From the NCBI GenBank assembly GCA_013297655.1, contig JAAFHV010000038.1, positions 1 to 48,265 on the forward strand: 48,265 nt of DNA, written 5' to 3'. Positions 16,412 to 42,908 of this stretch are shown in pieces. The position numbers and the translations under genes are program-made. The notes beneath the pieces were generated by a model. It was not told the origin of the DNA and did no database searches. It saw only the letters and a program-made list of their open reading frames with translations. Numbering within the stretch: the first letter of the stretch is position 1; each line of letters begins with the position of its first letter. The stretch is from Myxococcales bacterium (GTDB lineage: Bacteria > Myxococcota_A > Polyangia > Polyangiales > Polyangiaceae).

Positions 16412-17037
16412 TCACGCGTGAAGCGCGGCGAGATACGCCTTCACGAGCCGCGTTTGGCTCTCGCCGGGGACCACGAACCGAACGAGCAGACCGAGGTCGA
16501 GGCTCGGCAAAATCGCGCTCGTCGCGTGCACCTCGTAGGCATCGCCGACGAGCCGAAACACGCGTAGCGCCCCGTTTTCGTAGAGCATCACGTCGCTCCG
16601 GAGGCGCGAGCCACCTCGGGCACGGCGAGGCCCGCGTAGACGGCGAGCTTGTCGACGAGAGGGCTCGAAACGACGATCTCGAGCGCGATCGCAGGCACGC
16701 CGTCGGCCGCGATTGGACCGAGCGCATAACACTCGTCCGGCTCGAGCCCGCGCCGCTTGGCTTCCTTGCGAAACGTCGTCGCGCCGAAGCCGCGGAGATC
16801 GACGTCCTCGTCCATCGCCCACGCCTCGAGCAACCTCGCGATGAGCTGGTGGAGCTCACCGTGGAGGCGCGAAGTCGTCGCGAGCTCGAGCCGGCCTTCG
16901 AGGTAGGTCATCCGTGTGTGGTCTTCGTCGCCGAGCCGATCGCGGAGGGCGAGGTACATCCACCAAGGCACGTCCTCGAGCACGAAGCGGCGCTCGTCAT
17001 CACGTGCGACAGCCGCAGCTCCGGAGGCGCTCGCCAT
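16412..17037 (-). pseudogene. Uma2-family (DUF820, PD-(D/E)XK-like) nuclease gene broken by a small repeat insertion
   Basis: The first frame (17037 to 16588) encodes about 149 residues of a typical Uma2 protein: WMYLALRDRLGDEDHTRMTY, the catalytic-core block PAIALEIVVSS and AVYAGLAVPEV, then leaves the family with RASGAT and stops. The end of the family (MLYENGALRVFRLVGDAYEV, then LLVRFVVPGESQTRLVKAYL) continues in another frame down to 16412. Between them lies the 20-bp core of the palindromic repeat found elsewhere in this window (16592-16611), flanked by CAC on both sides. Removing 23 bp joins VPEV directly to MLYENG, as in intact family members. The gene was intact before the insertion; a truncated product may still be made. 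Confidence 0.8.
16592..16611 (-). repeat. Solo copy of the palindromic repeat inside the Uma2 gene
   Basis: Read on the minus strand the core is GCTCGCGCCTCCGGAGCGAC, identical to units of the array at 20151-20425. CAC is present immediately on both sides (16589-16591 and 16612-16614), consistent with a 3-bp target duplication. The insertion adds 23 bp and shifts the frame. Confidence 0.85.
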
Positions 17038-20146: not shown

Positions 20147-20427
20147 GAGGCTCGCGCCTCCAGAGCGACGTGACGCTCGCGCCTCCAGAGCGACGAGACG
20201 CTCGCGCCTCCGGAGCGACGTGACGCTCGCGCCTCCAGAGCGACGAGACGCTCGCGCCTCCAGAGCGACGAGACCCTCGCGCCTCCGGAGCGACGAGACC
20301 CTCGCGCCTCCAGAGCGACGAGACGCTCACGCCTCCGGAGCGACGAGACCCTCGCGCCTCGAGAGCGACGAGACCCTCGCGCCTCCAGAGCGACGAGACG
20401 CTCGCGCCTCCGGAGCGACGCGAGGCC
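20147..20427. repeat. 25-bp tandem repeat array, 11 units, between convergent genes
   Basis: Units begin at 20151, 20176, 20201, 20226, 20251, 20276, 20301, 20326, 20351, 20376 and 20401. Each is CTCGCGCCTCC, A or G, GAGCGACG plus a 5-base linker (TGACG, AGACG or AGACC). Variation is limited to a few positions. The first unit is preceded by GAGG and the last followed by CGAGGC, the same arms that flank the solo copy at 42855-42890, so the array looks like one solo element whose centre was amplified. It fills the gap between two convergent genes; the right edge touches the stop codon of the dioxygenase gene. There are no unique spacers, so it is not a CRISPR. Confidence 0.95.
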
Positions 20428-27125: not shown

Positions 27126-27399
27126 GTTACCGTGCCTTCCCCACGGGTGCGAGCCACTTTCGCCGAAGGTCGAATCGCCCACGTGTGGGACGCACGCGTA
27201 CCTTCGCGATCTCCGCAGCAGCTCGTGCGTCCGGAGCGGCCAGGCTGTCACCCGTTCAGGCTTCGCGTGCCGAAGATATCGCCTCGTCGCGCGTGAACGA
27301 GATACACTGGAGCGAGCGTGGGGTCGGGTCTCCGTCCACCCGTTTTCCTCGAGTGGGGGTGGGGATTCCTCTCAGGTCGCTCTAGCTCCCGCCAAACCG

Positions 27400-31794
<4,395 letters not shown>

Positions 31795-31840
31795 GCCTAT
31801 CTTTCCTGGCCCTTCCTTCGACGAAAGCCCACCTCTCGAC

Positions 31841-33136
31841 ATGACGAACCTCGTGAACGAAGCCCCGCAAAAACGCGTGGCGATGATCTTCTCCGGGGGC
31901 GGAGCGCGCGGTGCCTACGAGGTGGGCGTGCTCTCTTACGTCTTCGAGGAGCTCGCGCGGATGCGTGGTGGGCCCCCGCGCGTCGACATTTTGTGCGGCA
32001 CCAGCGTGGGCGCGATCAACGCCTGTTACCTCGCCGCGCACCTCGCCGACCCCGTGCTCGGCCTCCGACGCCTCGTTCACTTGTGGACCGAGCTCGAGCT
32101 GACCCGCGTGCTCGGGTTCGGCATGCGGCAGTTCGTGAGCTTGCCCCGGCTCGTGATGGGTGGGGGCCAAGACGGCTCCGGGCTCTTCGACGTGAGGCCG
32201 ATGGCCGATCTCGTCGGACGCGAGATCTCTTGGCGCGCCGTCGCGCGATCGCTCAGGAAAAACAGGCTCCGCGCGCTCGCCGTGTCGACCACGGAGGTCA
32301 CCACCGGGCGCACCGTCGTGTTCATGCAGACGTCGCCGAACGTCGCGATGCCGGATCTTCCGCCGCCGCGCACGCTCTACCGGAACGCGCACATCGGCCC
32401 CGTGCACGCCCTCGCGAGCGCGGCGATCCCGCTTCTTTTCCCTCCCGTTCGAATCGACGACGATCTCTACCTCGACGGCGGGCTCCGCCAGAACACCCCG
32501 ATCGCGCCCGCCCTCGCCCTCGGCGCGACCCACGTGTTCGCGATCGGGAGCTCGCGCGAGGTGCGCGGCATGGTGTCGACCGAGAACAAGGGCGACGGAC
32601 CTCGCGCACCGGGCGCCGCGTTCCTCCTCGGCAAGGTGCTGAACGCGTTCCTCCTCGATCACGTCGACGTCGACGTGGAGCTCCTCTCGCGCCTCAACAA
32701 CGTCATCGAGGACGGCACGAGAGCCTTCGGCCCCGGGTTCACCCAAGCCGTGAGCGGCCAGGCGACGCGTCGCGGAGCGCGTCCGTATCGGCACGTGCAC
32801 GCGCTCACCGTACGACCTAGCGAGGACATCGGGCGCCTCGCCGCGGAGCACGTGCGCCGCGGAAAATTCCAAGGAAACCCGCTACTTACCAAGCGGCTGT
32901 TTTCGATCTTGGACATCGGGGCGGGCGAAGAGTCGGACCTCGCGAGCTATCTCCTGTTCGATGGCCCGTTCTGTCGTCGGCTCATCGAGATGGGTCGCGC
33001 CGACGCGCAGGCTCGCCGCGACGAGCTCCTCGATTTTTTCGGGCGCGCCTCGGACGATGGCAGCGGGGCACAAGCGAACGACGGCGACAGCGGGCTCTGG
33101 GATCGAAGGTCCCTCGGGATCCCGCTCGGCACCTGA
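31841..33136 (+). CDS. Patatin-like phospholipase
   Basis: The 431-residue protein has all patatin landmarks: oxyanion-hole SGGGARGAYEVGV, the nucleophile GTSVGA (Ser55 in LCGTSVGAIN), and the Asp of LDGGLRQNTP (Asp212), which completes the Ser-Asp dyad. ALASAAIPLLFPPV is the conserved ASAAIP block. It probably hydrolyses acyl ester bonds of phospholipids or storage lipids. There is no signal peptide, so it acts in the cytoplasm or is exported by a specialised route. It starts 46 bp after the kinase/ATPase gene and may be co-transcribed with it. Confidence 0.93.
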   Translation: MTNLVNEAPQKRVAMIFSGGGARGAYEVGVLSYVFEELARMRGGPPRVDILCGTSVGAINACYLAAHLADPVLGLRRLVHLWTELELTRVLGFGMRQFVSLPRLVMGGGQDGSGLFDVRPMADLVGREISWRAVARSLRKNRLRALAVSTTEVTTGRTVVFMQTSPNVAMPDLPPPRTLYRNAHIGPVHALASAAIPLLFPPVRIDDDLYLDGGLRQNTPIAPALALGATHVFAIGSSREVRGMVSTENKGDGPRAPGAAFLLGKVLNAFLLDHVDVDVELLSRLNNVIEDGTRAFGPGFTQAVSGQATRRGARPYRHVHALTVRPSEDIGRLAAEHVRRGKFQGNPLLTKRLFSILDIGAGEESDLASYLLFDGPFCRRLIEMGRADAQARRDELLDFFGRASDDGSGAQANDGDSGLWDRRSLGIPLGT

Positions 33137-42358: not shown

Positions 42359-42908
42359 TCAGCGCGGGTTCTTCGCGCGGAGCACGGCCTCGCGCACCGC
42401 CTCGAAGCACGCGTCGGCCTCCGCCCCTCCCATCCCGAAGAAATACGATCCGGGACGCCCCTCGGTCCCGGGGAAGCCGTCGATCGTGATGCCGTCGTCG
42501 GTGGGGAGGTCGGCGATTGAGGCGAGCCCGGCGAGGGCCCCGACGAGCTTCGAGCCGCGCGTGATCGTGGCCTGGAGGAGCGGCAAGGAGAGCACCGCCG
42601 TCCCTCGCGACGCCCCATGGGTGCCGACGAGCAGGTGGGTGCGATGGAGGACGAGCACCATCTCGTGCTCCGTGTCTGCGTCCACGTGGTTGGAGCGTCT
42701 GCCAAGCAGCTTGCCGAAGAACGAGGTCGACGGAGGGTTCGTCCGGTAGGTGCACCATGCATGCACATCGACGAGCTGGATCGAAGCGTCGGCGGCGTGT
42801 TTCTCGATCGCGGAGAGCAGCGCGGCGGGCAACTCGGGGAGGGAGACTTGGCGGGTGAGGCTCGCGCCTCCAGAGCGACGCGAGGCTCACGTAGAGCGGG
42901 TCGGCCAT
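42359..42908 (-). pseudogene. Hypothetical myxobacterial gene interrupted at its 5' end by a palindromic repeat
   Basis: The main frame down to 42359 encodes SLPELPAALLSAIEKHAADA, LVDVHAWCTYRTNPP, MVLVLHRTHLLVGTHG, ITIDGFPGTEGRPGSYFFGM and a C-terminal helix; I do not recognise the family. The natural start appears to be ATG 42908 (MADPLYV), but that frame runs into repeat sequence after seven codons and is off by one base relative to the rest. Cutting out 43 bp (42848-42890) joins MADPLYV directly to SLPELPAALL. The 157 residues after a TTG at 42832 could still be translated, so loss of function is not certain. Confidence 0.65.
42855..42890. repeat. Solo copy of the palindromic repeat with full arms
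   Basis: The 36 bases contain the core CTCGCGCCTCCAGAGCGACG, with arms GTGAGGCTCGCG on the left and CGCGAGGCTCAC on the right. The arms are inverted repeats with one mismatch in 12. A dinucleotide AC is present at both edges of the inferred 43-bp insertion (42846-42847 and 42889-42890). The same arms bound the tandem array at 20147-20427. Confidence 0.85.

Follow-up and report, generated by a model that had tools for sequence, protein, structure and literature searches.

A very small dispersed repeat of two Polyangiaceae genomes at the break in a Uma2-family gene

In the stretch of DNA analysed here (48,265 nucleotides of a genome of the Polyangiaceae, contig JAAFHV010000038.1, hereafter the window), a nuclease gene of the Uma2 family loses its reading frame at a 20-bp sequence that recurs elsewhere in the same genome. 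The question raised by this locus is what this sequence, which we call R, represents, and by which route it may have come to lie inside a gene.

The break in the Uma2-family gene

A perfect copy of R lies exactly where the frame changes (Table 1), and a coding-frame test finds strong minus-strand coding on both sides of it with a shift of 2, which is what a net insertion of 23 bp predicts. The TGA that ends the N-terminal reading frame is formed at the end of R, at its right-hand junction. Homologs, the best of which among relatives is 61% identical, have no insert at this place and read EV or EL, one residue, and then a stretch matching LYENGAL; that single residue is Trp in 12 of 27 homologous loci, namely those readable there with a pattern that required W or V at this residue. 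The presence of one Trp between EV or EL and the next stretch implies a net insertion of 23 bp. In this respect the first-pass annotation, which had seen a repeat copy inserted where the frame breaks, is borne out.

The same annotation had described R as lying between two CAC triplets (minus-strand GTG), and these are indeed present; as the mark of a target duplication, however, the pair does not hold, since the right GTG is a usual start of the spacer that follows R (GTGAC, GTGAG) and the left one is the native Val codon of PEVW. Removal of 23 bp, which had been said to restore the continuity of the family, agrees with the homologs in length, but the triplet before CTC-TAC is now ATG and the conserved Trp codon is not regenerated. 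The site is therefore not simply an empty site plus 20 bp plus an exact 3-bp duplication, an event that would also require changes in the conserved codon. The inferred native sequence (GTG, a Trp codon, CTC) resembles the right-hand end of the repeat family, GTGAGGCTC. This copy is atypical for R in its left GTG and in its net length of 23 bp; among 100 sampled copies of the window's genome it alone is preceded by GTG, and in a larger sample it is joined by a second such copy, which heads an array (L387). At the start of the Uma2 reading frame (MASASGAAA; window 17015-17034, minus strand) there is a further R-like stretch with 4 mismatches and no GAG edge, which may be a decayed copy or a chance resemblance.

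The window as a whole holds 14 matches to R at up to 3 mismatches, where 0.10 are expected from shuffles, and it contains no Rfam match for a structural RNA at the gathering threshold.

Table 1. Copies of R in the window and features of the Uma2-family locus
Feature	Position in window	Strand	Basis or remark
R copy (20 bp, 0 mismatches) inserted in Uma2-family gene; GCTCGCGCCTCCGGAGCGAC	16592..16611	-	sequence match
CAC (GTG on minus strand), 3' side of R; start of spacer GTGAT	16589..16591		resembles GTGAC/GTGAG of other copies
CAC (GTG on minus strand), 5' side of R; native Val codon of PEV(W)	16612..16614		homolog reading
Uma2-family N-terminal ORF, 149 aa, stop made by R junction	16588..17037	-	homologs 34-61% identical
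Rest of Uma2 gene (..MLYENGALRV..), frame differs from N-terminal part	16412..16591	-	ORFs and coding-frame test
Head-to-tail array of 11 R copies, period 25, spacers GTGAC/GAGAC	20150..20419	+	sequence match
Single R copy (A variant), GTGAG-R-GCGAGGCT	42860..42879	+	sequence match
R-like sequence, 3 mismatches, atypical left flank; doubtful or decayed member	27221..27240	+	sequence match

Distribution and anatomy of the repeat

Among 59 genomes searched, R stands out in two. The window's own genome (9.9 Mb in 546 contigs) has 416 matches at up to 2 mismatches and none to a reversed control, and the metagenome-assembled genome Polyangiaceae bacterium P-RSF-IL-17, from another genus of the same family, has 183; in each of the remaining 57 there are 0-3 matches, with 0-14 for the reversed control. 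A 24-bp form, GAGGCTCGCGCCTCCRGAGCGACG, searched with at most 1 mismatch, picks out the same two carriers from 183 genomes of the order (263 and 142 matches, respectively), and, from a phylum-wide draw of 377 genomes in which P-RSF-IL-17 was not included, the window's genome alone. A scan of named genomes returned at least 74 R-bearing stretches in P-RSF-IL-17, the sole organism among the matches listed. The two carriers are not close relatives, since three gene fragments of P-RSF-IL-17 are 51-62% identical to the window's genome. Within the latter, several contigs (L043, L046, L052, L392, L393) start or end in arrays of R, and such arrays probably break the assembly, so that the copy number is a lower bound. 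Carriage by phage was considered and rejected: no viral contig contains the 24-mer, and the only one with the 20-mer lacks the GAG at its left edge. Among the best matches listed in the literature on myxobacterial interspersed repeats or on P-RSF-IL-17, as represented by titles and abstract openings, there is no account of R.

Two genes in the window (27400-33136) are collinear with a locus of P-RSF-IL-17 (L161), at 57% and 72% identity, and R or an R-like sequence lies about 160-180 bp upstream of the same orthologous gene in both carriers (window 27221-27240, with 3 mismatches; L161 966-985). This pair may be an old common insertion that has since decayed, or it may be due to chance.

The unit consists of GAG or GAC, the 20-bp core and a short 3' spacer, and mostly measures 23-28 bp, with one period of 30. 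Its left edge is sharp in P-RSF-IL-17, where an edge profile places GAG directly before R in 75 of 76 single copies and finds weak preferences beyond it, such as G at position -6 in 49 of the 76. The core is near-invariant in these 76 singles, an identity that is biased upward because most of the loci were retrieved through an exact 24-mer, and their 3' side is degenerate and purine-rich, resembling GGGAGAGG. In the window's genome the triplet before R is GAC in 56 and GAG in 39 of the 100 sampled copies, and single copies mostly continue with G[C/T]GAGG, often GCT.

R occurs in both orientations, and all clusters listed run head to tail on one strand. Array periods are mostly 25 and 23 in the window's genome and 25-28, with one of 30, in P-RSF-IL-17; spacers within arrays are near-uniform in the latter and mixed in several arrays of the former. 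Array tails are identical to the last spacer in 3 arrays out of 10 in P-RSF-IL-17 and in 6 out of 13 in the window's genome. The arrays look like the product of local slippage following a first insertion. An array of 18 copies in the window's genome (L053 6146-6579) partly alternates 25- and 23-bp units, forming a 48-bp higher-order repeat.

R has no terminal inverted repeats, its symmetry being confined to an internal CTCCGGAG palindrome and a weak 5-bp stem. This possible stem, with a 4-nt loop, is kept in 105 of 111 copies of P-RSF-IL-17 and in 39 of 100 of the window's genome, and the folding of R as DNA is no better than that of shuffles. A comparison of the flanks of 87 and 24 clusters found no longer shared element that carries R. 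A larger element with R at its ends was likewise rejected, the flanks yielding same-locus overlaps, short matches and coding similarity and nothing else.

Copies of R compared with homologous genes

Where R lies inside a gene of P-RSF-IL-17, homologs of that gene can serve as the empty site. The cleanest case is a LysR-type regulator, in which all 5 homologs have a gap of exactly 9 residues (27 bp) at R. At other copies the homologs are also mostly shorter, namely 5 of 5 for Fpg (by 6-8 residues), 9 of 11 for Aat (the other 2 have unrelated long loops), 3 of 4 for a lipase and 15 of 16 for a loop of a DNA methyltransferase, where the difference, more than nine residues, exceeds the insert. None of 15 EgtB homologs has R; 12 are shorter, ten of them by 8-10 residues, and 3 have unrelated long loops. 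In a large kinase-like gene, R is in frame in P-RSF-IL-17 and is absent from all 9 homologs, including the window's ortholog at 27400-31794. The loops of Fpg, Aat, EgtB, the lipase and the methyltransferase vary naturally in length, and the exact size of the insert, nine codons or 27 bp, is therefore taken from LysR alone. On these alignments, the copies of R examined against homologs are shown to be added stretches and not ancestral sequence.

These comparisons bear on two explanations in which R is not a mobile sequence. In the first, old copies of R give rise to all others solely through replication slippage, recombination and gene conversion; the arrays, including the one that alternates 25- and 23-bp units, do resemble slippage or unequal exchange, but slippage is unable to put R at new sites, and single copies are found in unrelated genes that share no flanks and whose homologs lack R. 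As judged from the alignments, the homologs thus argue against this as the sole process, and we consider it decidedly unlikely. In the second, R is maintained by selection because it has a function, for example as an uptake sequence, a protein-binding site or a regulatory RNA, and is not a selfish insertion. Its occurrence in both orientations and the near-invariant 24-bp core in one genome would agree with such a role. However, uptake-type motifs arise by point change, unlike the stretches that R adds relative to homologs; R is not above background in nearly all relatives searched, and the window has no match to an Rfam family. We regard this second explanation as very improbable. The description of R in the first-pass annotation as a mobile miniature element of about 20 bp thus stands in part: R is dispersed by insertion and behaves as mobile, but the evidence given for the way in which it jumps fails.

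Of 77 single copies in P-RSF-IL-17, 39 lie in predicted genes, and 19 of these are at least 100 bp from the gene end; these counts come from a home-made gene caller, which scores the broken Uma2 site as intergenic and whose first version, the in-gene counts of which are left out, took in antisense shadow reading frames. Of the 24 singles flanked on both sides by coding sequence of one strand, 16 leave the frame intact and 8 shift it, as compared with 289 and 13, respectively, of 302 random positions. Hence not all in-gene insertions preserve the frame, unless the 8 are gene boundaries; they may be such boundaries or broken genes. An earlier frame model, trained on the gene set with antisense shadows, opposed the in-frame reading (2 of 9 singles in frame), and a first script, with too-strict thresholds, covered 3 cases; the figure of 16 in 24 comes from the better coding model. 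In the window's genome both singles that could be tested for frame shift it, the Uma2 copy being one of them.

Array periods are 27, 27 and 30 for the arrays of P-RSF-IL-17 that lie within genes, and 25, 25/26, 26, 26, 27 and 28 for the six that are intergenic. Clusters of the window's genome are intergenic in 21 of 23 cases, and the other two are at most 20 bp from the end of a gene. Units of 25 or 23 bp, as in the window's genome, disrupt a frame, and they are confined almost entirely to intergenic DNA; a 27-bp unit, as in P-RSF-IL-17, amounts to nine extra codons and persists within some proteins. In a Ser/Thr-kinase-like protein of P-RSF-IL-17, one in-frame copy (L060 4807-4826) immediately precedes GTPGYMSPEQ, within the region of the activation loop.

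The GAG (or CTC) of R falls on a codon boundary in 35 of 39 single in-gene copies. Selection on codon phase was rejected as an explanation of this bias, since the background rates, obtained with the first and poorer gene caller, are already high (67% for GAG, 69% for CTC, and 75% and 77% for GAGG and CCTC). Target preference therefore accounts for most of it.

Possible routes of spread and comparable repeats

A target duplication, from which strand transfer had been deduced, was sought by comparing the left flank of each copy with its own right flank and with the flanks of other copies (words of 2-6 bases, left gaps of 0-11, right offsets of 0-13). The 76 singles of P-RSF-IL-17 show no locus-specific duplication; the best z is 2.9 over 840 combinations of length and offset, and the mean longest direct repeat is 2.58 for own flanks and 2.59 for permuted ones. 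In the window's genome, for which an initial 10 singles were too few and more were added, head and tail agree above chance in 47 clusters (10 identical 5-mers versus 4.6 expected, p 0.006; 19 4-mers versus 8.8). For the 24 singles among these clusters, a few of which are look-alikes and not true copies, there is hardly any excess (2 5-mers versus 1.1, p 0.31; 7 4-mers versus 3.4, z 2.1; best z 2.7). The agreement is thus concentrated in arrays, where it can arise by slippage, and longer identity in arrays would itself favour slippage. If a constant sequence such as GAG were duplicated, these flank tests would not reveal it; in P-RSF-IL-17 the core varies far less than the right-hand GAG, which argues against such a duplication there, and in the window's genome it is possible.

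The step from target duplication to strand transfer is accordingly not upheld. A 20-bp miniature element moved by a DDE-type enzyme with a 3-bp target duplication would explain the CAC/GTG on both sides of the Uma2 copy, the net insertion of 23 as 20 + 3, and the head/tail identity of the pooled clusters in the window's genome. It would also have to accommodate a changed Trp codon, unit lengths that vary (23-28, one 30) and the lack of terminal inverted repeats, together with flanks that show no locus-specific duplication in one carrier and at most a weak excess in the singles of the other. We judge it decidedly unlikely.

The main rival to the route that we favour, the templated one described below, is an enzyme of the RAYT/HUH (Y1) type acting in trans on R as a REP-like element. 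According to this explanation, GAG would be the left target and the spacer GNGA[G/C] the right cleavage site, no duplication would be made, and the right site would become a new target, giving tandem copies. REP and REPIN elements, which are not known to make a target duplication, resemble R in size, copy number and non-autonomy. R, however, has no GTAG-type tag at either edge, and its hairpin, absent from 61 of the 100 copies sampled in the window's genome, is not kept in both carriers.

The first-pass annotation had pointed to a RAYT or other transposase elsewhere in the genome, and the search for one gave little in its favour. In a search of 59 genomes the RAYT family PF01797 has no match in the window's genome and 3 weak ones in P-RSF-IL-17. 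With a RAYT-like protein of P-RSF-IL-17 as query there are 6 matches on 5 contigs of that genome and one weak relative in the window's genome; the motifs HLH and YVAANPV presumably mark the proteins of both carriers as RAYT-like. Around these genes, in the stretches read on the 5 contigs and in one stretch of the window's genome (12 kb), no R was found at up to 4 mismatches. RAYT-like matches occur in 24 of the 59 genomes, and in 22 of the 57 in which R is not above background. This Y1 family, about 300-390 aa at full length, has many matches in genomes of the order that lack R (G038, with 22, and G046, G011, G053, G019 and G048). The missing locus-specific duplication in P-RSF-IL-17, the fixed left motif, the head-to-tail arrays and the occurrence of RAYT-like proteins in both carriers speak for such an enzyme, and the right end, degenerate in P-RSF-IL-17 despite an almost invariant core, speaks against it. 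We consider it a possible explanation, if not a probable one.

Reverse transcriptases were also considered as movers of R and rejected. In 10 genomes searched with PF00078, none of the 28 of 30 loci checked contains R-like sequence at up to 4 mismatches. In a comparison between the carriers from which one of the two reverse transcriptases of the window's genome (L278) was left out, the most similar pair shares about 40% identity. Searches for RAYT, reverse transcriptases and Rfam families found no enzyme or RNA for any mechanism of R.

With moderate confidence, held for the two parts jointly, we propose that the Uma2 gene was broken by the insertion of one unit of R, a very small, non-autonomous dispersed repeat, and that the spread of R takes place at GAG-GCT-like sites through a route that is single-stranded or templated. 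According to this proposal, a strand ending in GAG, often GAG-GCT, which is R's own start, would anneal to a copy or array of R; one unit would be copied from the annealed template, and synthesis or joining would re-enter the target where a second GAG-like site occurs. The inserted unit would then bear the same junction at its own end, as a next target or slippage site, which would explain the arrays. This route is favoured because of the missing duplication in P-RSF-IL-17, the fixed left and degenerate right edges, the unit-length insertions and the arrays. Counting against it are the near-invariant core, which also fits a dedicated enzyme, the head/tail identity above chance in the window's genome, as a real duplication would give, and the RAYT-like genes in both carriers. 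The description itself, of a tiny dispersed repeat that is added to its sites, anchored by GAG in P-RSF-IL-17 and by GAG or GAC in the window's genome, and expanding locally, is well supported.

The best reading of R is that of a new very small dispersed repeat, like the SDRs of cyanobacteria and the CGTC-tagged REPs that lack a transposase. Like the SDRs of Elhai et al. 2008, as briefly described in PMC2884548 and PMC3116915, which are about 20 bp long, dispersed and tandem, and thought to be mobile, R is small (about 20-27 bp), high-copy, dispersed, locally tandem and added relative to homologous sites. In comparison with these brief descriptions, R belongs to another phylum and has another sequence, with a GAG-anchored edge and nine-codon insertions. 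The CGTC-REPs, in the excerpts of Di Nocera et al. 2013 (PMC3733652), are 20-40 bp long, present in high copy number, sometimes located in genes and not associated with a transposase, and R resembles them in all four respects; the reverse complement of its 24-bp form moreover starts with CGTC. According to the same excerpts, however, they have stems of 8-9 bp with a loop of 4-5 nt and CCA-type tails and are mostly head-to-head dimers, whereas in R the stem does not exceed 5 bp and is missing from most copies in the window's genome, there is no conserved tail beyond GAG, and the clusters listed are head-to-tail.

Retention in frame within conserved protein genes is shared by R in P-RSF-IL-17 and the Rickettsia palindromic elements (Ogata et al. 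2000; PMC2229807, in its excerpted text), but the latter are palindromes of 105-146 bp and R, at about 27 bp, is not a long palindrome. Bacterial MITEs, as outlined in that text (PMC2229807), are small, non-autonomous and dispersed as R is; most of them have terminal inverted repeats and target duplications, and R has no inverted repeats and, in P-RSF-IL-17, no locus-specific duplication. How tiny repeats without a dedicated transposase, such as the CGTC-REPs, spread is left open in the excerpts of PMC3733652.

In this context R is a short, near-invariant, many-copy unit with a sharp edge and empty homologous sites, present in two genera, which makes its insertion rule directly testable. One may speculate further, tentatively and with more doubt than confidence, that a unit of 25-27 bp could spread within genomes and between genera with no terminal inverted repeats, target duplication or dedicated transposase, by copying that is guided only by a match between target and element at GAG or GAG-GCT, and that in one lineage it would insert precise nine-codon peptides into working proteins. 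In any case, R provides conserved enzymes with nine-codon insertions that have arisen naturally.
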